From: Baia soyae | GTDB lineage: Bacteria; Bacillota; Bacilli; Thermoactinomycetales; Thermoactinomycetaceae | Length of the DNA stretch: 64,000 nt | Direction: 5' to 3' | Assembly: GCF_004341445.1 (NCBI RefSeq) | Contig: NZ_SLXV01000005.1 | Coordinates: 1-64,000, forward strand | Part shown: positions 30,439-62,876 of the stretch, piece after piece | Layout: every line of letters starts with the position of its first letter | How positions within the stretch are numbered: position 1 is the stretch's first letter | Program-made: the position numbers and the translations under genes | The notes under the pieces: model-generated | The model's database searches: none | What the model was told of the DNA's origin: nothing | Seen by the model: only the letters and a program-made list of their open reading frames with translations

Positions 30439-33400
30439 TTACGAATAAACTACATTTGCTAGTTCTTTTAATTTCTCTCCCAAAATCTGACCAATTTCCT
30501 TCAATGGTTCTGGTTGGCACATGTCTTTATGTCGGCATGCAATCTCGTGCACCTCGATCTCTCCATCCACATACGGTTCCCATGAATCTGCAAACAGAGG
30601 CGTGAACCAATCTGGAATCACCGTCGAGCGGAAGAAAAGAAGATTCCCTTTAAAAGGAGCTGGCATATATTTCCGTAAAATGTCTATCGAATTTATATAA
30701 GCACTTCGCAAATTCAAGATAATCTCTTTATCTAGGCTTGCTAAAGCACTACCATCTCTACTAAGAATCTCCATTGCTCCCTCTAAGTCTAGCCTCTTGT
30801 CACCCAAGTCATCAGGGTCGTATCCACCTAGTGCCAGTAGGGCAAGTAGGGCCTCGTCATCACTTGGTGTACGTTTGATCGAAAAATGGCTTGGGTACGC
30901 ATCTAGCATCACTAAAAGAGCAACTTCGTCTCCTTGTCGTTGGAGTTGTGTAGCCATAGCATGAATCACATTTCCTCCTAGAGACCACCCTAGTAAATAA
31001 TACGGACCTTCTGGTTGAATCTCTTTCATATGCTCTATATAATCCGCCGCCATCTCCTCAGTCGATCTCGGCATGACATCTTTCCTAGCAATCCCTCGAG
31101 CCTGTAGACCGTAGATTGGGTAATCCACACCCAGTGTCGTCATAAGACCCGCATAGCACCAGCTAAGTCCCCCAGCTGGATGAGCACAGAATAACGGATG
31201 CCGAGTCCCATTTTCTCGAAGTGGTAGAAGCACTTCTAATGGGTTATGACTACTCCCCATCGCTAGGCTTTCAGCAAGGCCGGCTACCGTCGGGGCTGTA
31301 AACAGGTGACCGATATTGATTTCCATACCCAGAGATTCACGAATTCGAGTCATCAAGCGAACTGCGAGTAATGAATGTCCTCCAAGTTCAAAAAAGCTAT
31401 CATCGATTCCCACACGTGGTAGATCTAAGACTTCCATAAAGAGATCGCACAAAATCTCTTCTTGAGGCGTTCTCGGTAACCGCCCAGATGCCTGAGTCGA
31501 AAAGTCTGGTGGAGGCAACGATTTCTGATCTAATTTGCCATTTGGCGTTAAAGGTAGCTGGTCCATTAGCACCATAGCAGATGGAACCATATACTCCGGT
31601 AATCGGCTTGCCGCATGCGGGCGTAGTGATGAAAGCTCCTCTTGCGACTGAGATACCGTAACGACATAAGCAATAAGTCTCTGATTCCCAGGCTGATCCT
31701 CACGGACGACGACCGCTACCTGTTTCACATCTGGATGTTCATTTAGAACAGCTTCAATCTCCCCTAATTCAATTCGGAAACCGCGAATCTTAATCTGCTG
31801 ATCTGCTCGTCCTAGGTAATCTAGCGTTCCATCAGGTCTGAGGCAAGCCAAGTCGCCTGTACGATACATCCTTGAACCCGGTTTCCCAAATGGATTTGCG
31901 ATAAATCGTTCAGCCGTTAGCCCTGGGCGATTTAAGTATCCTCGGGCCAATCCATCACCCGAAATATAAAGTTCTCCTCTAACCCCCGGTGGGACTGGTT
32001 GCAACCATTGGTCTAATACATACACGCCTAAGTCAGGTATTCCTTCTCCAATCAAACTACTAGCCGAGATCTCAACACTCGCTTGATCGAGTGGACAATA
32101 ACTTACATGTACGGTGGTCTCCGTGATTCCGTACATATTAATCAATCGTGGCTTTTGATCCGAATGGCGGGTATACCAATCTTTTAATCTACTAAACTCT
32201 AAAGCCTCTCCACCAAATACGATATAGCGTAAGGAGAGTCTACTTCCTATTTCCTGATTCTCTTGATCGGACTGAATCAATTGATAGAAAGCAGAAGGAG
32301 TTTGATTTAATACCGTTACCTCTTCCTCTACCAATAGCTTTAAGAAATCAACCGGAGAGCGACTCGTGTCATAAGGAACAATCACTAGACGGCCTCCATA
32401 GAGCAGTGCCCCCCACATCTCCCATACAGAGAAATCAAATGCATAGGAGTGGAATAAGGTCCACGTATCAGTAGATTGGGACTGGAACCATGAATCCGTT
32501 GATTGAAAGAGACGAATCACATTTTGATGCGGGATGACGACACCCTTCGGAAGCCCGCTCGATCCAGAAGTATAAATGATATAGGCTGGATGCTGTGGTG
32601 ATAATGGCTGGATCCGATCTGCATCTACCGGATTGGATAGAGCACCTTCACCTTGATTCACATCCTCAAGCAACATAAGCGGAATCGAGTGATCTTGAGG
32701 CAACGAAGGAGCAACCTCTGCATTTGTAATCATGCATGAAGGCTTTGCATCACTCAGCATAAACGAAATGCGCTCTGTTGGATAAGCCGGATCGAGAGGA
32801 ACGTATCCTGCACCCGTCTTCAGAATCCCTAGTAATGCCACCATCATCTGGGCAGATCTCGGTAGGGCAAGGGCAACAAATTGCTCAGGTCCTACTCCTT
32901 GTTCCATTAACGAGTACGCAATCTGATTCGCTTTTGCGTTTAGCTCCTCATAGCTTACTCTTGTATTCTCATAAACGAGCGCTGTCTGTTTCGGATAGAG
33001 AGTAGCCTGTCGTTCAAAGAGGGAGACAATCGTATCCTCCACCTCGAGGCTCTCTTTCACATCCTGGGTTAGTTTCGCCCGTTCTTCTCCACTCAAGATT
33101 TCAAGACGGCCAATGGATTGATTTGGATCGTGTGATGCGCCCTCTAATAACCTGAGCAATCTCTCAATTAAATGCTCCATCGTATTCCGTTCAAATAAGT
33201 CGGTACTATACTCTAAGAAGCCATGTAATCCGTTTCCAATTCCCTCTGCATCAAAGGACTCTCGAAACTCTAGAGTTAGGTCAAATTTAGCAGTGCCCGT
33301 ATTGCTCAGATGGAAATCGGCGTCTAGCTCAGGTGCATTCCACTTTAGATCAGGTGTGTTTTGCATGGCGATCATAATCTGAAATAACGGATGCTTCGAA

Positions 33401-36400
33401 CGAGAACGAGTTGGATTTAGCACTTCCACCAGCTTTTCAAACGGAACATCCTGATGTTCATATGCACCGATATTTACTTTCTTGACTCGCTCAATCAGTT
33501 CCCTGAAACTTGGCTCACCCGATGTATCCACTCGTAGCACTAATGTGTTTACAAACAACCCCACGAGATCGACAATCCGATCATCATTCCGGCCCGCAAT
33601 CGGACTTCCAAGTGGAATATCGGTCCCTGCTCCCAACCTTGTTAATAAAGCGGCGAACCCAGCTTGTAGAACCATAAAGAGGCTGGCACCATTTTTACGA
33701 GCGATCTCCGTTAGTCGGCTATGGAGCCCAGAAGGTATCTCGAAAATGAGGCTTTCTCCTTGATAGCTTGATTCGAATGGACGCTGGTGGTCGGTTTGCA
33801 ACTCTAACTGATCCGGAAGGTGGGACAAAGCCCCTTTCCAGTATTCAATTTGCTGAGCAATTAAGCCATCTTGATTGTTATCGTAGTTTAGTAAATTCTC
33901 CTGCCAAATGGCATAGTCCGCATACTGAACGGGTAACTCAGCAAAAGAATGCGTTTCTCCTTTTGCTCTTTCTCGGTATGCAAACTCCAGATCTTTTATC
34001 AGTGGCGCAAGTGACCAGCCGTCTCCTACGATGTGATGTAGCAATAGTACCAGCACACCGGAATTGGCTGAAAGCTCAAATAGCTCGGCACGAATGGCAG
34101 GTTCTTTTGATAAATCAAAGCTATATCGTGCTGCCTGATGTTGAAGCTCCGAAAGCTCTTCTTCCGTGCACAAGGTCACATGTAACGTTGGCACCGCCTG
34201 ACTTGCTTCTAAGATCAGTTGGCAAGTGCTACCTTGTTGATCTGGGAAAATCGTCCGAAGAACTTCATGACGTTTCACTACATCAGCGAGGGCTTTCTCT
34301 AGCGCACCTTTGTTCATATTTCCTTGTAGCTGAATGATAAGAGGAATGTTATAAGTAGGACTTGGTCCCTCTAGTTGATGAAGAAACCATAAACGCTTCT
34401 GGGAAAACGACAATGGAGCCTCTGACTCTCTCTCCACTCTCACGATCGGCGGGCGAACTGGCTTCCCTTGATCCAGCTGCCCAATTAATCCAGCTACAGT
34501 AGGCGTTTCGAATAATTTTCCAATACCGAGTTCCACATCGAAAACGGCCCGAATCCGATTCATCAGATTCCCTGCCAGTAGTGAGTGTCCTCCTAAATTG
34601 AAAAAGTTATCATCAATTCCCACTCGAAATAAGCCTAATACCCCAGCGAACAGATCACATAAGATTTCCTCTTGTGGTGTTCTTGGCTCCCTCTTGATAG
34701 TAATCGACTCAAAATCAGGTGCAGGAAGCCTCTTTCGATCTAGTTTGCCATTCGGAGTAAGCGGTAGTTCTTCTAACGAGACAAAAGAGGATGGAATCAT
34801 ATAAGCAGGTAAACTTCCACCCACAAACTGACGAAACTCTGCCCAGTCCAAGTTGACACCAGCTGGTGGGACGATATAAGCGACCAATCGTTTGTCTCCC
34901 GGCCGATCCTCTCTCACGATGACGGCTACTTGGTGAACTAGCGAATGACTCGCAATCACCGCTTCCACTTCACCTAGTTCAATCCGATACCCTCTAATTT
35001 TGAACTGATGATCCGCTCGACTGACATACTCTAACGTTCCATCTGGACGCCAACGGGCAATATCGCCTGTTCGATACATGCGCGAACCCGCAGGTCCATA
35101 TGGATTAGCAATAAATCGCTCCGCTGTAAGATCTGGACGGCCAAAGTATCCCCGTGCTAATCCTGCGCCCGCTATGTATAAATCTCCTGGAATCCCTGGG
35201 GGCAGTAATCGTAAGCTAGCATCCAGAATGTATACTTGCGTATTCCATAACGGCCGACCAATCGGAGGCGATAGCAATTGCTCCTTAGAAAGAATACATG
35301 ATGTTGACCAAATCGTGGTTTCCGTCGGTCCGTATAGATTGGTTACCTTACAACCCAGCTCAACCAGCGCAGATGCCAGATGACTCGGAAGCGCTTCTCC
35401 TCCTACCAGCACTTTTAGCCCTTCAATCGAAACATCGTCATAAGAGGCAATCGTTTGCCAAAGTGTCGGCGTTGCCTGCATATGCGTAATACCATTCTCT
35501 TGAATCATCTTGACCAAAGCAGAGGGTGTTTGAATCGCTTCTTTCTGGGCAACCAGACAAACCGCTCCACTAATCAACGGAAGGAAAATCTCTAGAACCG
35601 AGATATCAAAAGCGATCGTGGTAACAGCTAATAGGCGATCCTCTTGGCCCATCGAAAATTGATCTTGCATCGATAATAGGAAGTTTAAGAGGCTCTGCCG
35701 ATGTATGACTACCCCTTTAGGCTTGCCCGTAGAGCCAGAGGTGTAGATCATATACGCTGGATGCAATGGGGAAATGGTTTCGCTCGGTGCAAAGTCGTAG
35801 CTACTAAATGTATCTAGCTCCTTATTCAACTCTGTATCATCTAAAACCAACTTGGCAACAGGAGCCTCTTCCGATAGTTGACCTTCTAACTCCCTTGTCG
35901 TAATGATGTAAGAAGGACTCGCATCCTCTAACATGTACGAAATACGTCCCACCGGATATTCTGGATCAATCGGAAGATAGCCAGCTCCCGTCTTTAGAAC
36001 CGCTAACATCGCAACGACCATATCTACACCACGAGGCAACATAATCGCAACAAATTGCTCTGGACCCACACCACGTGAAGTAAGCAAATTGGCTAAACGA
36101 TTACTTCGTTCACTTAATCCCCTATAAGAAAGAGTCGTATCAGCACAGATCACAGCTGTTTCTTCTTTACGCGCCCATACTTGTTGTTCAAAAAGCTCCA
36201 ACACACTACTGTCAGCAAATGGCTGCTCCGATTGATTCCAATCCTCTACAATCTTCCTACTCTCCTCAGGAAGCAAGAGATCGCAGGAACCTAGAGAATC
36301 TGCACTCTCCATTTGGATCACCTGCCTGATGACAGATTGGATCCGGCGAAGATGAAGACTCACTTCCTCCGCTTCGTAGAGATCCGCATTTGCCGCGAGA

Positions 36401-37584
36401 TCCATTCGTAATCCTTGTCCACCTTGTTGCTCATAGAGATGGAGAGAGATATCTTCAACCGGTCCCGTGGCTAGCTTGTGAACGATGCCACAAGCATCAG
36501 CAAAACGAAGTCCATATTCAAATGGCATAATATTGATTTGCGGACCAAACAGGCGATTGTTTTCACCTAATAATTTACAATCCCGACGGATCTCTTCATG
36601 CCGATAACGTTGGTGATTTCTCGTATCGCCCATTGCCTGGCGAATTTGTTTCATAAGCTCACGAAATGACATCCCCGGATGCATGTCTAGCCAAAGTGGC
36701 ACGATATTCATAACCATCGCTGGTACCTTCAACGAAGCAGAACCCATGCGCCCCATCATCGGCACACTTAACACAATCTCCTTCGATCCAGTCAAACGAT
36801 GCACATAGATGGCCATAGCCGCAATCATGCACTCCTGCCAGCTCGTCTCACATTCTCTAGCCCATTTTTTCAGGTTTTCAAAGTCGTCAGGATGTAAAAA
36901 ACAAGTAGACAAGTCCGTATTTCCAGATAACAAAACGGCACGATCCGCTAAACTAACAATATCGGTTTGATTCTGGTACTGTTCCATCCAAAATAGACGA
37001 TCATCCTGATATTTTTGTGAATTCCGATATGTGACATCTTCCTCAATAACCCGCTCAAATGAGCCGAAAAATCGCTCCCCACAAGGACTTCCTTCGATCA
37101 AAGCGGTATACACTTTCGCAACTTGTTTTGACAAGAGGGAAAATCCAAAACCATCAATCGCGATGTGGTGGATCTTCTGATACCAAAATGTACGATGATC
37201 CTCTAGCTTTAACAAAACTTGCCTACAAAGTGCCTCATGAAGCAAGTCAATGGGTTTAGCCAAATCCTCTTTCATCCACTTCATCGCTGAATCGTACGGA
37301 TCGCTCTCTTGACTCATATCGATAACTAGGACTTCAACCTCCTGATCACTACGAATCTCCTGCCACGGCTCACCCTCATCTTCATGAAACCGAACATGTA
37401 ACGATTCTGCTTCTACAATCGTCTGTTTAATGGCTTGGATTAATGGTTCTAACTCCACATTTCCTTCTATTTCTACATATTCACCCGTGTTATAAATCGG
37501 ATTCTCTGGATCTAACTTCTGAGCATACCAGATCCCTGATTGTGCCCGAGTAAGGGGTCTACGATTTGTGTTTGTATGCAACAT
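30439..37584 (-). CDS. dhbF: Dimodular NRPS DhbF (Gly and Thr) with thioesterase
   Basis: DhbF joins 2,3-dihydroxybenzoate, glycine and threonine and cyclises three units to bacillibactin. The 2381 residues read C1 (HHIAIDG, about 139-145), A1 (about 465-950), T1 ([10 protein letters not shown], about 1000), C2 (HHIVGDG, about 1180), A2 (about 1500-1980), T2 ([10 protein letters not shown], about 2066) and TE (GWSLGGN, about 2198). Aligning the A domains to GrsA by eye gives a pocket code of D-I-L-Q-V-G-L-I-W for A1, typical of Gly, and D-F-W-N-V-G-M-V-H for A2, typical of Thr. There is no epimerisation domain. AAAGGTGG precedes the ATG. The domain order and codes match B. subtilis DhbF. Confidence 0.97.
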
Positions 37585-54441: not shown

Positions 54442-54475
54442 AGATGAAACTTCAAATATGACATTACTTTGATGG

Positions 54476-54737
54476 AGCCAAATGAATGCATTCACTCTCA
54501 GAGAGCCGGTGGTAGGTGCGAACCGGTAGGAAATCATTCATAGAGCACTCCGGAGTAGACTAGCTGAACTCTATGAATAGTAGGTTAGTACGGTGGAAAC
54601 CGTTATCCCATGTGTCGATATGTTTTATTTCGACCAACAAGGTCATATGTGTGAGCATATGACAAACTGAGGGTGGCACCACGACCTTTCGTCCCTCATC
54701 CATAATAGGATGAGTATGGGATGAAAGGTCTTTTTTT
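54476..54737 (+). promoter_or_regulatory. T-box leader (tRNA-sensing attenuator), probably serine-specific
   Basis: The highly conserved T-box AGGGTGGCACCACG is at 54670-54683, and it is followed by a terminator whose stem is GACCTTTC (54683-54690) / GAAAGGTC (54723-54730) with a T7 run. Upstream are the stem I type elements AGAGAGCCGGTGG, GGTGCGAACCGG and CTCCGGAG. Uncharged tRNA would favour the antiterminator and switch on the aminotransferase-serA operon. Serine is the expected effector because of the genes; I could not fix the specifier codon with certainty (TCT and AGC triplets are both nearby). Confidence 0.9.
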
Positions 54738-54763: not shown

Positions 54764-55921
54764 ATGACATTTTCGGAAAAGTTTCATCTACGCATCCCCG
54801 GGCCTACGCCCATCCCATCACGAGTTCAACAAGCGATGAATCAACCGATCTTCGGACATCGTAGCCCTGAAGCCACACAGCTCATTCTCGAATGTAGTCA
54901 ACAACTAAAGCCTATTTTTGGCACAGAGCAAGACCCGCTCATTCTCACCAGTAGCGGTACATCTGCCTTAGAAGCGGCTGTTATCAACACATTATCGCCT
55001 GGGGACGAAGCTCTAGTGATCGTCACAGGAGCATTTGGCGACCGCTTTGCAAAAATCGTGGAGCGTTATGGATTCACACTACATCGGCTCGATATCGAAT
55101 GGGGGAAAGCATGTAGACCTGAACAGTTACAAGCAGCACTCCAGCAGCACCCTAAGACGAAAGCTGTTTTTGTCACGTACTGTGAGACGTCTACAGGTGT
55201 CTTAAATCCGATTCAAGAACTATCTCAAGTGGTTCGCACTCACTCAGAAGCTCTTTTCATCGTAGATGGTGTTAGTTGCTTAGGCGCCGTACCTTGTCAG
55301 ATGGACGACTGGGGACTTGATATAGTCGTAACGGGTTCACAAAAAGCCCTTATGCTCCCACCAGGGTTAGCGTTTATCGCCGTCAGCGAGCGTGCATGGG
55401 GAGAAATTGAACAGAATCAAACATCTAGTTTCTATCTAGATTTACTTCGTTATCGAGACAGCTTATCACAAAACACAACTCCTTATACTCCGGCTGTTTC
55501 CCTGCTTCTAGGTCTAAAAGAAGCACTATGCATGTTAGAAGAAGAGGGGTTGGAGCAAGTCTTTAAGCGACATGAGTTATTGATGAACATGTGCCGAGCA
55601 GGAGTGCAAAGCCTTGGACTCACCCTCATGGCAAGTGATCAAGACTCCTCTCCTACTGTTACCTCGATTTACGGTGGAGCTGAGGCATGGAGTTCAGAAG
55701 ACGTAAGAAAGCATTTAAAACAATTACGCGTCTTAGTAGCGGGTGGACAACAACATTTAAAAGGACAGATATTCCGTATCGGTCATATGGGCTACTGTGA
55801 TTCTCTAGACGTACTAACCGCTTTAAGCGCACTCGAAATCGCCCTTATCCAAGCAGGAGCATCTGTTTCACTTGGTTCTGGCGTAAAAGCAGCTCAGGAG
55901 GTGTACCTTAACCATGTATAA
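54764..55921 (+). CDS. Class V aminotransferase (serine/alanine-glyoxylate type) in serine operon
   Basis: This 385-residue PLP enzyme belongs to the small-subunit hydrogenase / alanine-glyoxylate aminotransferase group. It has LRIPGPTPIPSRVQQAM at the start, LILTSSGTSALEAAV, and the PLP lysine in VVTGSQKALMLPPGLAF near residue 190. It is not a SerC-type phosphoserine aminotransferase by sequence. It lies under a T-box and overlaps serA by 8 bases. I infer that it replaces SerC by transaminating phosphohydroxypyruvate or hydroxypyruvate; a serine-pyruvate or serine-glyoxylate reaction is the alternative. Confidence 0.85.
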   Translation: MTFSEKFHLRIPGPTPIPSRVQQAMNQPIFGHRSPEATQLILECSQQLKPIFGTEQDPLILTSSGTSALEAAVINTLSPGDEALVIVTGAFGDRFAKIVERYGFTLHRLDIEWGKACRPEQLQAALQQHPKTKAVFVTYCETSTGVLNPIQELSQVVRTHSEALFIVDGVSCLGAVPCQMDDWGLDIVVTGSQKALMLPPGLAFIAVSERAWGEIEQNQTSSFYLDLLRYRDSLSQNTTPYTPAVSLLLGLKEALCMLEEEGLEQVFKRHELLMNMCRAGVQSLGLTLMASDQDSSPTVTSIYGGAEAWSSEDVRKHLKQLRVLVAGGQQHLKGQIFRIGHMGYCDSLDVLTALSALEIALIQAGASVSLGSGVKAAQEVYLNHV

Positions 55922-57494
55922 AGTACTTATTACGGATCCACTAAGCGATCTTGGAATCGAAAAATTACTACACGCAACCGATGTGCAAGTAATTCGCCAA
56001 ACCAATCTAACCCCCGAACAGCTCCTTATCGCGATCGAAGATGTTGATGCCTTACTCGTACGTAGCCAGACAAAGGTAACGGCTGATGTTATCGCAAAAG
56101 GGAAAAAACTAAAGGTAATTGGCCGAGCAGGAGTGGGTGTTGATAACATTGATGTCTTGGCTGCTACACAGCACGGTGTCATTGTTCTCAATGCACCAGA
56201 TGGAAACACCATCTCCACTGCTGAGCACACCTTTGCCATGATGATCTCCCTCGCCCGTAACATCCCACAAGCTTACCGTTCTACGGTCCAAGGAGAATGG
56301 AAACGGAAAGAGTTTGTCGGGATAGAGCTAAATAAAAAGACTCTCTCCATCATTGGCTTAGGAAGAATTGGGGCTGAACTGGCTAAGAAAGCAAAAGCAT
56401 TTCGCATGCAGGTAGTCGCCTTCGACCCGTATCTGACCGAAGAGCGTGCAGAGAAGTTAGGGGTGCAAAAAGCGACCCTTCATGAAGCGATTGCCCAAGG
56501 AGACTTTATCTCCGTCCATACCCCTCTCACCAAGCAAACTCGTCATCTCATTAGTGATCATGAATTTACCATGATGAAAGACGGCGCACGCATCTTAAAC
56601 TGTGCTCGTGGTGGCATTATTGACGAAGATGCTCTATATCGAGCGCTAGTGGAGGGCAAAGTAGCAGGTGCCGCATTAGATGTGTTTGAAATAGAGCCTC
56701 CTGTTGAGCACCCTCTATTTGGTTTGGAGCAAGTAATCGTAACTCCCCACTTAGGAGCCTCTACGGTGGAAGCTCAAGAAAACGTAGCAATCGACGTATC
56801 CGAAGAAGTGCTGAAAGTATTACGTGAGGAAGCATTTAAAAATGCGGTCAACTTACCTTCCATCCCAGCAGATCTACAACAAAAAATTGCCCCTTATCAA
56901 ACATTAGTAGAAAAATTGGGTGAGTTTGTAGCCCAAATTTCGAAAGGTGCACTGAAAAAAATCACCGTTACCTACGCAGGTGACGTGGCAAATATGGAAG
57001 TAGCACCGCTCACACGTACCATTCTAAAAGGGGTGCTTTCGCATCATCTTTCTGACGTCAATTATATAAATGCTCCTGAGATCGCTAAGCAACGTGGTAT
57101 TCAGATCGTTGAGCAGAAATCTTCTCATAACCACGGATTTACACAGTTAATCAGTGTCCATGTAGAGACGGAACAAGATTCCTATAGCGCAGAAGGAACC
57201 CTCTTAAATGGATTTGGCGCTCGTATCACGAAAGTAAACGGCTATTCGGTGGATCTCTCCCCTACCGGGCATCTCCTCTTTATCGAGCATCAAGACCAAC
57301 CGGGGGTAATCGGGAAGGTGGGAACCTTGCTCGGCACTTATAAGGTAAATATCGCGACCATGCAAGTAGGACGTGAAACCATCGGTGGGCAAGCAATTAT
57401 GCTCCTCCATATTGATAAAGCAATTGATGAAACTCTGCAAATGGACTTACAAAAAGTTGATTCCATCCAAAAGGTGACGATCTTAGAATTGTAG
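55914..57494 (+). CDS. serA: D-3-phosphoglycerate dehydrogenase
   Basis: SerA starts serine synthesis from 3-phosphoglycerate. The 526 residues show the full long form: substrate half with LLVRSQTKVTADVI, NAD motif LGRIGAELAKKAK, catalytic Arg, Glu and His in LNCARGGIIDEDAL and VTPHLGAST, an intervening domain, and a C-terminal ACT domain (HQDQPGVIGKVGTLLGTYKVNIATM) for serine feedback. It overlaps the aminotransferase gene by 8 bases. AGGAGGTGTACCTTAACC precedes the ATG. Confidence 0.97.
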   Translation: MYKVLITDPLSDLGIEKLLHATDVQVIRQTNLTPEQLLIAIEDVDALLVRSQTKVTADVIAKGKKLKVIGRAGVGVDNIDVLAATQHGVIVLNAPDGNTISTAEHTFAMMISLARNIPQAYRSTVQGEWKRKEFVGIELNKKTLSIIGLGRIGAELAKKAKAFRMQVVAFDPYLTEERAEKLGVQKATLHEAIAQGDFISVHTPLTKQTRHLISDHEFTMMKDGARILNCARGGIIDEDALYRALVEGKVAGAALDVFEIEPPVEHPLFGLEQVIVTPHLGASTVEAQENVAIDVSEEVLKVLREEAFKNAVNLPSIPADLQQKIAPYQTLVEKLGEFVAQISKGALKKITVTYAGDVANMEVAPLTRTILKGVLSHHLSDVNYINAPEIAKQRGIQIVEQKSSHNHGFTQLISVHVETEQDSYSAEGTLLNGFGARITKVNGYSVDLSPTGHLLFIEHQDQPGVIGKVGTLLGTYKVNIATMQVGRETIGGQAIMLLHIDKAIDETLQMDLQKVDSIQKVTILEL

Positions 57495-60290: not shown

Positions 60291-60320
60291 TTGACTTGAT
60301 GTTCGGAAATAGAATAGAAT
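60291..60320 (+). promoter_or_regulatory. Promoter of the tetR-monooxygenase operon
   Basis: TTGACT, an 18-base spacer and TAGAAT. The -10 overlaps the left end of the large palindrome, which fits repression by its own TetR. Confidence 0.65.
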
Positions 60321-60357
60321 AATGACCATAGTCATATATGACTATGGTCATTATTCT
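60316..60357. promoter_or_regulatory. Perfect 42-bp palindromic operator
   Basis: The 21 bases AGAATAATGACCATAGTCAT plus A are followed directly by their exact reverse complement, without a spacer. It lies between the -10 box and the tetR start codon. The size suits two TetR dimers or one large half-site pair, so it is very likely the autoregulatory operator. Confidence 0.88.
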
Positions 60358-60373
60358 AGGTGGTGATTCATTT

Positions 60374-60958
60374 ATGTTAAGAGAAGCCAAGAAAAAAGCT
60401 CTAAAAGAAAAAATTTTCTTGCAATCTATGCGCTTATTTGTTGAAAAGGGATTTGATCATGTAACCATAGAAGAAATTACCCAATCGTGTGGGATTGCCA
60501 AAGGAACTTTCTATAATTATTTTCCTCAAAAAGAGTCGATTTTACTTTATTTAGGCTCATCTCAAATGGAATTCATACAACAAAATATTTCAAAGTATGC
60601 TCATCTAGAAATAAAAGAAAGGGTCTTCCAGCTTTTTGATGACCTCACTAGTCGTTATCTAGATCATCCAGAGTTGATAAAGGTTTTCCTCTCAGAGATG
60701 ATCCGATCCTCTGGACTAATGAAAGAAGAACAGAAAACGATTGATCACTTTAGATCTGTGTTAATGAAAATGATTGATGAAGCTAAACAATCTAAGCAAA
60801 TAGTAGGAAATCCATCCTCTGAGCATGTTACCTCTGTGTTAATGGCTATATATTTTTATTCCTTAGTGAATTGGAGTATCGTTAATTCTGACAAAAAGGA
60901 GTTAAAGAGTATGGTTCGCAATCAACTAGAAATGGTTTGGAAGGGGATTCATTCATGA
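60374..60958 (+). CDS. TetR family transcriptional regulator
   Basis: This 194-residue protein has the TetR helix-turn-helix in the first 60 residues: FLQSMRLFVEKGFDHVTIEE and the recognition part CGIAKGTFYNYFPQKESILL. The C-terminal ligand domain is helical and not similar enough to known regulators for a ligand guess. ATG 60374 follows AGGTGGTGATTCATTT; a longer frame from 60338 would start inside the operator. Its ATGA stop overlaps the monooxygenase start. I infer that it represses its own operon through the upstream palindrome and is released by the compound the enzymes modify. Confidence 0.92.
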   Translation: MLREAKKKALKEKIFLQSMRLFVEKGFDHVTIEEITQSCGIAKGTFYNYFPQKESILLYLGSSQMEFIQQNISKYAHLEIKERVFQLFDDLTSRYLDHPELIKVFLSEMIRSSGLMKEEQKTIDHFRSVLMKMIDEAKQSKQIVGNPSSEHVTSVLMAIYFYSLVNWSIVNSDKKELKSMVRNQLEMVWKGIHS

Positions 60959-62145
60959 GAAAAAAAGTCATTATAATAGGCGGTGGAATAGCAGGTCTCA
61001 GCGCTGCCATTGCTTTGCAGAAGCTTGGATTCGATGTGAATATTTATGAGGAATATCCAGAACGGAAGCCTGCTGGTGCTGGGATAGTCCTCGCATCCAA
61101 TGCTTTAAAAGGATTAGATCATCTAGGCATTTATCAACAAGTTAAGAATCATGGCAGATCCATTCATGGACTTACACTTTTATCAGAAAAAGGAAAGCAC
61201 TTATCTAAGCAAACCATTCCATCTCCGTTTGAACAAATATCCATTCACAGAGCAGATTTACATCTCCTATTAAGCTCGGCTGTACAACCGGATACAGTTT
61301 ATATGGGAAAGAAGTGTATTCACTTTGAACAGGATGAAACTGGGGTAACTGTATTTTTTCAAGATCATAGTAAGGCTACCGGAGATTTTTTACTTGCTAC
61401 TGATGGCATACACTCTGTTATCCGAAAAAATCTACTACCTTCCACGCAACTTCGTTATGCAGGTTACACTTGCTGGAGAGGTGTTATTACTCAAAGTAAT
61501 GTCAATTGTATTCCAGAAGATGCTACTGAAACCTGGGGGATCAAAGGGAGATTTGGTATAGTGCCATTACCTAATCAACAAATCTACTGGTACGCCTTAA
61601 TCAATGCACCTTATCAAAGCGCGCAATACTCTGCATATCAAGCAAAAGATCTATTCGAACATTTTAAAGATTATCATGATCCGATTCCTAGTATTTTGAA
61701 TGGTAATGCGAACAACAAGATGATTCATAATGATATTATCGATATTCCATCTCTTCAACGATTTGCCTTTCATCGAATACTTTTGATGGGCGATGCTGCA
61801 CATGCCATAACTCCAAATTTAGGACAAGGAGCATGTCAAGCTATCGAAGATGCTGTTGTCCTTGCCCATTGTTTAAAAAATAATCCATCTGTTCATAAAG
61901 CATTTTCTGAGTTTGAGGCCAAGCGATTAAAAAGAACAGAAACAATCTCACGATATTCACGGTTAGTAGGAAAAATGGCCCAAGTGGATAATCCATTTCT
62001 TTCTTTATTACGAAATACACTATTAAAACGAATACCTAAATCTGTAAACCGCAAGCAACTTGAATATCTGTATAAAGTTGACTTTAACTCACATTTGGGT
62101 AATATAACCAATAACATTGAAAAAACACAGGGGGATAGATCGTGA
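60955..62145 (+). CDS. FAD-dependent aromatic-type monooxygenase
   Basis: This 396-residue class A flavin monooxygenase has the FAD motif VIIIGGGIAGLSAAIAL, the ATDGIHSVIRK region with the conserved Asp-Gly, RYAGYTCWRGV, and the second FAD motif LLMGDAAHAITPNLGQG. These match the salicylate hydroxylase / HpxO / YetM group. The real substrate cannot be read from sequence. It starts at ATG 60955, overlapping the tetR stop, and its own stop overlaps the next start (GTGA). The group also includes enzymes that inactivate antibiotics, such as TetX, but no specific TetX residues were confirmed. Confidence 0.9.
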   Translation: MRKKVIIIGGGIAGLSAAIALQKLGFDVNIYEEYPERKPAGAGIVLASNALKGLDHLGIYQQVKNHGRSIHGLTLLSEKGKHLSKQTIPSPFEQISIHRADLHLLLSSAVQPDTVYMGKKCIHFEQDETGVTVFFQDHSKATGDFLLATDGIHSVIRKNLLPSTQLRYAGYTCWRGVITQSNVNCIPEDATETWGIKGRFGIVPLPNQQIYWYALINAPYQSAQYSAYQAKDLFEHFKDYHDPIPSILNGNANNKMIHNDIIDIPSLQRFAFHRILLMGDAAHAITPNLGQGACQAIEDAVVLAHCLKNNPSVHKAFSEFEAKRLKRTETISRYSRLVGKMAQVDNPFLSLLRNTLLKRIPKSVNRKQLEYLYKVDFNSHLGNITNNIEKTQGDRS

Positions 62146-62876
62146 TCGTGAAGCATCTCAAAAAGCTCAAGGAAGAAGCAGATTCCTACTATAAACAAAC
62201 AGGTCTACCTTTTGTTGTACTAAAGTCAGCGATGACACTAGACGGAAAAATTGCTACCTCGACAGGAGATAGCAAATGGGTAACGGGAGAGACTTCGAGG
62301 CATCATGTTCATGAATTACGGCACATCTATGATGGGATTATGATCGGTGTAGAGACGGCTATCAAAGATCGACCACAACTGACAACTCGCTTACCCGATG
62401 GAAATGGGAGAAATCCAGTTCGAATCATCGCAGACAGTCAATTACGCTTGCCACTTGATTCACCGCTGGTAGATACAAGTGAGGCCCAAACGTGGGTGCT
62501 TTGTACAGATAAAGCAGATATGGAGAAGGAGAAAAGATTAACAGGGTATGGAGTAAACGTGCTTCGTACGGGTAAAGGATCGCGAGTGGAGTTACGTAAA
62601 GCAATGAAGAAATTAGGGGAAAATGGGATTCAATCCATCCTACTAGAAGGTGGAGGGCAGTTGAATTGGTCGATGCTGGAGGCTTCTTTGGTCCAGAAAA
62701 CAATGATCTTTATCGCTCCAAAATTGCTTGGTGGAAAGAATAGTATTTCTCCGATTTCAGGTGAGGGGTTTACACGAATGGGGCTAGCTGTTCATCTAGA
62801 CAAGCTTTCAATCGAACGTTTTGATGAAGATATTTGCATCAGTGGATATCCAATCTACATAAAAGTTGAAAAGTGA
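62142..62876 (+). CDS. RibD C-terminal-type reductase (DHFR-like fold)
   Basis: This 244-residue protein matches the reductase half of RibD: VLKSAMTLDGKIATSTGDSKWVT, MIGVETAIKDRPQLTTR and SILLEGGGQLNWSML are the family blocks. The deaminase half of RibD is absent, so it is either a stand-alone riboflavin-pathway reductase or a recruited NADPH reductase of unknown substrate. GTG 62142 is used, preceded by AGGGGGATAGATC and overlapping the monooxygenase stop. Placement in a TetR-controlled operon away from other rib genes favours a detoxification or modification role. Confidence 0.85.
   Translation: MIVKHLKKLKEEADSYYKQTGLPFVVLKSAMTLDGKIATSTGDSKWVTGETSRHHVHELRHIYDGIMIGVETAIKDRPQLTTRLPDGNGRNPVRIIADSQLRLPLDSPLVDTSEAQTWVLCTDKADMEKEKRLTGYGVNVLRTGKGSRVELRKAMKKLGENGIQSILLEGGGQLNWSMLEASLVQKTMIFIAPKLLGGKNSISPISGEGFTRMGLAVHLDKLSIERFDEDICISGYPIYIKVEK

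Follow-up and report, generated by a model that had tools for sequence, protein, structure and literature searches.

A RibD-type reductase behind a TetR-monooxygenase pair in Baia soyae: a probable half of a split ribD

When three genes overlap end to start behind one promoter, should we read them as one pathway? The question is raised by a locus in Baia soyae, within a 64,000-nucleotide stretch of contig NZ_SLXV01000005.1 (the window, here always meaning that whole stretch), where a TetR-family regulator is followed by a flavin adenine dinucleotide (FAD)-dependent monooxygenase and then by a stand-alone reductase of the RibD_C family. The original prediction was that the two enzymes could act in turn on one compound, and that the trio is the best candidate in the window for an undescribed system. 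We consider it probable, instead, that one string of genes holds two modules: a self-regulated TetR-monooxygenase pair, and a reductase that is one half of a split ribD and works in riboflavin synthesis. What can be read directly in the sequence is the trio, the predicted operator sites, the fact that these recur, the lack of a fused ribD, the presence of both of its halves, and an intact active site.

The three genes lie on the forward strand. The regulator (60374..60958, 194 amino acids) matches PF00440 (TetR_N) with 50.5 bits against a cut-off of 24. The monooxygenase (60955..62145, 396 amino acids) falls in NCBIfam PRK06753 (NF005243, 454 bits, cut-off 365) and matches PF01494 (FAD_binding_3) with 97.9 bits (cut-off 22). 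The reductase (62142..62876, 244 amino acids, GTG start) reaches 197.3 bits for PF01872 (RibD_C, cut-off 24.1) and 219.3 bits for TIGR00227 (cut-off 150.15). The gene identities first proposed are thus sound, and the coordinates of the open reading frames bear out the proposed overlaps, ATGA at 60955-60958 and GTGA at 62142-62145. For tetR we chose the start at 60374, behind the sequence AGGTGGTGA (60358..60366, forward strand) that reads like a ribosome binding site; a further in-frame ATG, upstream of it at 60338, falls within the palindrome described below. The order TetR, monooxygenase, RibD_C is identical in both further genomes of the genus (G001 and G002), making three of three with the window genome (G000).

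What does the third gene do? Its product is most likely the AROPP (pyrimidine) reductase of riboflavin synthesis, to judge by its domain and its active site. In PMC3668577, the active-site residues of AbRibD are given as Lys156, Ser172, Trp174, Thr176, Arg181, Arg188, Asp204, Arg211, and Glu290. By spacing and alignment, the equivalents in the window reductase are K28, S44, W46, T48, R53, R60, D76, R83, and E169, the first eight spaced identically; over 13 sequences, eight of the nine are invariant and T48 is nearly so. K28 aligns with a lysine of the B. subtilis chain (2b3z), which we take to be Lys151, assuming a 12-residue offset in the deposited chain. A lysine at this position is tied to a preference for the deaminated (bacterial) substrate, with Asn found there in archaea and Thr in fungi, according to PMC3631187; its retention fits an enzyme that acts after a separate deaminase. 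An archaeal-type reductase was tried as an identity and rejected (TIGR01508, 171.1 bits vs. a cut-off of 186.45, with the bacterial Lys present).

Is such a role available to the reductase? The rib operon of the window genome is found some 13 kb past the reductase, on the same contig but the opposite strand, and carries ribE, ribBA, and ribH, followed by scpA/scpB-like genes (ribBA and the scp genes were named by eye). A flavin mononucleotide (FMN) riboswitch precedes ribE with 117.1 bits (cut-off 66.2), and likewise in G001, G002, and G005, the last a genome of another genus. In all four, ribD is absent from the operon. A fused RibD frame is present in 19 of the 23 genomes of the family, and the four that miss it are these same four; the searches for RibE and RibH covered 15 of the 23. 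Five weak tblastn matches upstream of ribE (the best 8e-06 over 27 residues) were rejected as a remnant of ribD, because the matching query segments (residues 8-48) come from over-long open reading frames and lie ahead of their deaminase domain, and because the matches overlap the riboswitch. Thus, a genus without a fused ribD yet keeping the rest of the rib operon offers the reductase a ready function.

The missing first half can also be found. A stand-alone RibD-type deaminase of about 150 amino acids is encoded in each of the four genomes without a fused RibD (on contigs G000:C1, G001:C6, G002:C15, and G005:C29), with the HAE and PC..C of the zinc motif present. The window genome's copy, at G000:C1:33704-34156, matches positions 1-138 only of TIGR00326, with 173.6 bits, and in the three genomes of the genus no more than about 8 kb separates the deaminase from the same gene pair. 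As for the second half, the PF01872 search reports the gene behind the monooxygenase as the sole RibD_C gene of G001 and of G002; G000 has a second one, on contig C64, in addition to that gene, and in G005 the search reports one intact stand-alone copy plus pieces of a broken one. Both halves are intact in four of four genomes without a fused RibD vs. one of the 19 others (G015, Hazenella coriacea), an association with Fisher p-values of 0.0006 by genome and 0.029 by genus, to be read knowing that related genomes are not independent. We infer, with good support, that the reductase works in riboflavin synthesis with the stand-alone deaminase as its partner. Monofunctional enzymes replacing E. 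coli RibD are reported to give turnover that could still be detected (PMC3668577, citing Magalhaes 2008). The intermediate passed between deaminase and reductase is described as highly reactive in PMC4921024.

Annotation alone is a poor guide here. The 244-residue frame covers only positions 134-342 of the 343 of TIGR00326, with no N-terminal zinc deaminase domain fused to it, and it nonetheless passes the cut-off of that model (166.1 vs. 156.35 bits). The deaminase half passes as well, so that this cut-off is no test of fusion. And since both halves pass the model of the bifunctional enzyme, and a plasmid copy of the deaminase (see below) is annotated as bifunctional RibD, automatic names hide the split.

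Some neighbors of the deaminase deserve mention in their own right. Beside it in the window genome, L166 10317-17218 contains a 1078-residue gene, a 617-residue transporter-like gene, and a small cysteine-rich open reading frame, which by eye resemble a lanthipeptide cluster; the large genes of this block recur beside the deaminase of G001 and are not in the stretch examined for G002. NUDIX genes occur beside the stand-alone deaminase in G015 (L165 5429-5752) and near it in G013 (L168 3026-3487).

Could the pathway be dead instead, with the genus importing riboflavin, the rib operon decaying, and the half-RibD genes doing something else? The loss of the fused ribD would fit, as would the existence of related half-RibD genes on mobile elements. 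On the other hand, ribE, ribBA, and ribH are open, with a ratio of nonsynonymous to synonymous divergence (dN/dS) of 0.02-0.11, their FMN riboswitch is well over its cut-off, and both halves are kept and constrained, with dN/dS of 0.15 for the reductase and 0.08 for the deaminase. We regard a dead pathway as very improbable, the least credible of the readings considered here.

We now turn to the first two genes. A promoter-like TTGACT-18-TAGAAT (60291..60320, forward strand, 10 of 12 consensus matches) precedes tetR, as a member of a class of matches that is barely above chance at the locus (15 found vs. a shuffle mean of 10.2). Its -10-like TAGAAT forms the first six bases of a palindrome at 60315..60358, a probable TetR operator, with two 22-nt arms that are 100% complementary and no spacer. 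The palindrome had been described as perfect, containing the -10, and 42 base pairs (bp) long; perfect it is, and the -10 opens it, with a length of 44 bp. By simple arithmetic, a perfect 22-nt inverted repeat is far beyond chance. Inside it are two predicted operator sites of the form TGACNNNNGTCA, at 60323..60334 and 60339..60350, which are the only two in the whole window; 0.8 are expected, and since 22 of 100 shuffles reach at least two, the motif alone proves little. In G001 the palindrome is still a perfect 44 bp, through paired changes. In G002 its inner bases have changed and full symmetry is lost, but all four TGAC/GTCA blocks are retained, for which reason we favor reading the operator as a pair of neighboring sites over a single long palindrome.

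The motif gains weight from comparison. Among 121 genomes searched with the monooxygenase (E-value of 1e-30 or better), 26 have matches, at 28 loci, around which we examined about 1.5 kb on each side, less at contig ends. Ten loci have at least 45% identity, and eight of them carry the same TetR, with TGACNNNNGTCA upstream, twice in G000, G001, G002, G015, G005, and G110 and once in G037 and G060. The exceptions are G062, which lacks a site and whose TetR matches only distantly, and G014, where the contig ends close upstream. In none of the 18 more distant loci do TetR and site occur together (G022 has only a distant TetR, G081 only a site). The monooxygenase of G060 is broken by three stops; one stop falls within the match in G037, G110, and G005, yet open frames of 380, 399, and 394 amino acids are found there. 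Thus, the autoregulation proposed at the outset is well supported by the recurrence of these operators before the pair in other genera and families, and the TetR-monooxygenase combination appears to be an older pair that regulates itself and occurs in several families.

The same survey bears on whether the trio is a unit. Within these flanks, RibD_C adjoins the monooxygenase in three of the 28 loci, all in the window genus, while at five loci outside the genus the TetR-monooxygenase pair occurs without it. The gene-order check therefore does not reveal a conserved trio beyond one genus. The monooxygenase itself has as its best solved-structure match the flavoprotein monooxygenase 3rp6 (169 bits). 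Two specific identities were rejected: a tetracycline-inactivating monooxygenase (destructase / Tet(X)), with 77.6 and 68.2 bits vs. cut-offs of 550 and 750, and the FAD-dependent urate hydroxylase HpxO, with 258.9 bits vs. a cut-off of 500.

How does a sequential pathway fare, in which a single aromatic or antibiotic compound serves as inducer and as the substrate of first the monooxygenase and then the reductase? It would lead us to expect overlapping genes under a shared promoter, probably a regulated one, as seen here, and the RibD reductase domain is dihydrofolate reductase-like (PMC3631187), making other substrates conceivable. It must contend, however, with TetR-monooxygenase pairs lacking the reductase and with a reductase clade lacking the monooxygenase, and with a reductase in which the RibD active site is retained and which, in two genomes of the genus, is encoded by the sole RibD_C gene. 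We find it highly unlikely. A joint hydroxylation-reduction pathway is not supported, given that the association is not conserved and that a riboflavin role is at hand; the outcomes that were said to speak against such a pathway, a non-conserved association and a reductase needed only for riboflavin, are largely what we observe. On present evidence, no undescribed hydroxylation-reduction pathway is encoded by the trio.

Divergence within the genus points the same way. Across its three genomes, the synonymous divergence (dS) of the reductase (0.40-0.53) and of the rib genes (0.30-0.80) exceeds that of tetR (0.03-0.18) and of the monooxygenase (0.02-0.18); the dN/dS of the latter two is 0.19-0.55, where a very small dS underlies the higher values. 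The low dS of the pair relative to its flanks most likely means that it was exchanged within the genus more recently than they were, and the pair and the reductase most likely have different recent histories. Between G000 and G001, a tract of high identity runs from about 60.2 to 62.4 kb, reaching the first ~250 bp of the reductase.

That tract, which covers tetR, the monooxygenase gene, and the 5′ portion of the reductase gene, would suit an explanation by flavin supply: the reductase makes a riboflavin precursor, and its place in the operon was selected since an induced FAD-dependent monooxygenase raises the need for flavin. The gene order kept in three of three genomes and the GTGA overlap would suit it too. 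But no such arrangement is seen at any of the 25 other monooxygenase loci within the flanks examined, and only one of several pathway enzymes would be coupled, with ribE-ribBA-ribH under the FMN riboswitch. We consider this explanation unlikely, if less so than a shared substrate, and the position of the reductase behind the monooxygenase is probably incidental to monooxygenase chemistry.

Where, then, did the halves come from? We built a reductase tree of 51 rows from 73 matches (excluding repeat copies, several class-level rows, the pseudogene G005:C12, and the degenerate copy G018:C5) and a deaminase tree of 47 rows. From the latter, TadA-like proteins scoring below 100 bits were excluded, together with repeats, several class-level rows, and the broken copy in G022; G001, G010, and the second copy of G013 were added by script. 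Ten stand-alone reductases form one clade (support 100/100), and so do 14 stand-alone deaminases (100/100). The reductases of the window genus group with the mobile copy of its own genome, G000:C64 (100/99), and the G005 copy groups with those of G004 and G015 (86/97). Forcing G005 together with the window genus is rejected (approximately unbiased test, p 0.004, for a group named after the tree was seen), and so the two genera most likely acquired their reductases separately. The split of ribD apparently arose twice.

Relatives of both halves often stand next to UTRA-domain regulators, and several of the reductases lie on mobile elements. An XRE-UTRA regulator stands directly before six of the ten stand-alone reductases (C64, G004, G008, G015, G019, and G021; domains assigned by Pfam in C64 and G004, by alignment in the rest). 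A GntR-UTRA regulator precedes six of the 14 deaminases: G003 (the one assigned by Pfam), two loci in G018, two in G013 (one regulator broken), and Laceyella sacchari plasmid NZ_CP103867. The G020 deaminase has a UTRA fragment nearby, and by eye we saw no UTRA regulator near the deaminases of G010, G011, G015, G005, or the window genus. The two regulator types have 36 invariant columns in common over nine sequences. Contig C64 encodes a rolling-circle replication initiator, a FtsK/SpoIIIE-like protein, and a phage-type integrase; a replication-relaxation protein occurs in G004 and G021, whose large protein is related to ones in G008 and the Laceyella plasmid; G019 has a resolvase gene about 4 kb from the reductase. 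Around the G015 reductase no mobile genes were seen by eye, and ARAGORN reported 0 genes on the mobile-element contig.

One regulator motif, searched against 84,980 species genomes, found eight loci, missing G000 and G013 and thus not exhaustive; all eight are, as far as we can place them, in Thermoactinomycetaceae. Against plasmid records, the C64 reductase had 117 matches, none with 60% identity or more; an XRE-UTRA protein had 173, again none reaching 60% and one with more than 80% cover, the best being the GntR regulator of the Laceyella plasmid; and the plasmid deaminase found itself and 95 others, all below 60%. In searches of an open-access library, we found no publication on a link of RibD and UTRA to riboflavin, on a TetR-monooxygenase-RibD operon, or on a riboflavin split in Thermoactinomycetaceae, and for monofunctional RibD with horizontal transfer only a crystal-structure paper.

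Two further kinds of neighbor were noticed around these elements. A creatininase-family gene lies directly before the GntR-UTRA-deaminase pair at the two loci of G018 (L176 3166-3774 and L179 1988-2683), and another adjoins the G010 deaminase on the opposite strand (L125 2000-2749); the superfamily includes the archaeal riboflavin enzyme ArfB, and the G018 and G010 genes score well below the cut-off of the ArfB model. A type II hammerhead ribozyme (L088 3813-3877, 52.9 bits, cut-off 37) lies in a mobile-element-like region of Laceyella sacchari.

Putting the two modules together, the preferred reading would work as follows. TetR would bind the two TGACNNNNGTCA sites at the -10 and repress its own gene and the monooxygenase, until released by a small molecule. 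The stand-alone deaminase would carry out the step preceding reduction, and the RibD_C protein would reduce the deaminated intermediate AROPP with NADPH, the two jointly replacing the fused ribD missing from the riboswitch-controlled rib operon. The reductase gene would have been captured from a mobile element and lodged behind the TetR-monooxygenase pair; capture is the most parsimonious origin, although the transfer may have gone in the opposite direction.

Several observations weigh against this reading. The deaminase of the window genus has GPC where the canonical motif, PCXHXG(R/K)TPPC in PMC3668577, has PPC, and a Tyr in place of BsRibG Asn103, a ribose contact (PMC8256712). The second change is mitigated by the fused RibDs of the family, which vary at that position too. 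It is odd for a vitamin gene to stand behind an inducible repressor, unless enough transcript arises from basal or internal initiation, and an internal promoter-like match that might serve the reductase (62078-62105) belongs to matches no commoner than chance. The second reductase, on C64, could do the job in G000, in that one genome. The trio intact in three of three genomes, with an identity tract reaching into the reductase, makes some selected linkage possible. Finally, there may have been a single shared loss of ribD with later replacement; the set searched comprises three genomes of the window genus and one of G005's genus.

Can the regulators beside the relatives tell us more? A tentative idea, which we hold to be possible and rather doubtful as a whole, is that the half-RibD genes on Thermoactinomycetaceae mobile elements are switches, in which a UTRA sensor of XRE or GntR type, paired with either the reductase or the deaminase alone, reads an intermediate of the riboflavin pathway that is made or consumed by its partner enzyme. 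Hosts that came by both halves would then have dispensed with their own ribD, apparently on two occasions, so that an essential vitamin step would depend on parts of mobile origin, in the window genus inside a TetR-monooxygenase operon.

Elsewhere in the window we note a T-box leader at 54460-54699 (107.8 bits, cut-off 93), preceding overlapping open reading frames at 54764-57494, and a minus-strand open reading frame of 2381 amino acids at 30439-37584, by its size perhaps a multimodular protein.

If the reading of two modules is right, two halves, each encoded on its own and akin to genes of mobile elements, have taken the place of a fused core vitamin enzyme, at separate loci outside the FMN riboswitch. 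More interesting than the trio as a pathway are the split ribD and the half-RibD genes linked to UTRA regulators, and the latter pose a testable question: which metabolite do these elements sense? There is also a caution. An overlapping gene is no proof of a new catabolic or resistance step, and it is important to check the genome for the housekeeping copy first.

How does the locus compare with what is known? To the bifunctional RibD/RibG of B. subtilis (2b3z), the window reductase matches in the reductase domain (174.6 bits over residues 13-237) and shares the active-site residues, the specificity lysine among them; unlike RibD/RibG, it has no deaminase domain, lies outside the FMN-riboswitch rib operon, and stands behind a TetR-type promoter. 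In being a monofunctional RibD_C protein of similar size, it resembles the archaeal and fungal reductases (M. jannaschii 2azn; RIB7), scoring 156 bits to 2azn. Closer are the XRE-UTRA-linked reductases of Thermoactinomycetaceae (Laceyella, Hazenella, Shimazuella, and G000:C64), which belong to the same clade with 61-76% identity and equally have no deaminase domain, whereas the window reductase stands behind the TetR-monooxygenase pair and is not accompanied by an XRE-UTRA regulator. That pair, in turn, is made of the same two genes and TGACNNNNGTCA operators as the TetR-PRK06753-like pairs of other genera, and only in the window genus is RibD_C the third gene.

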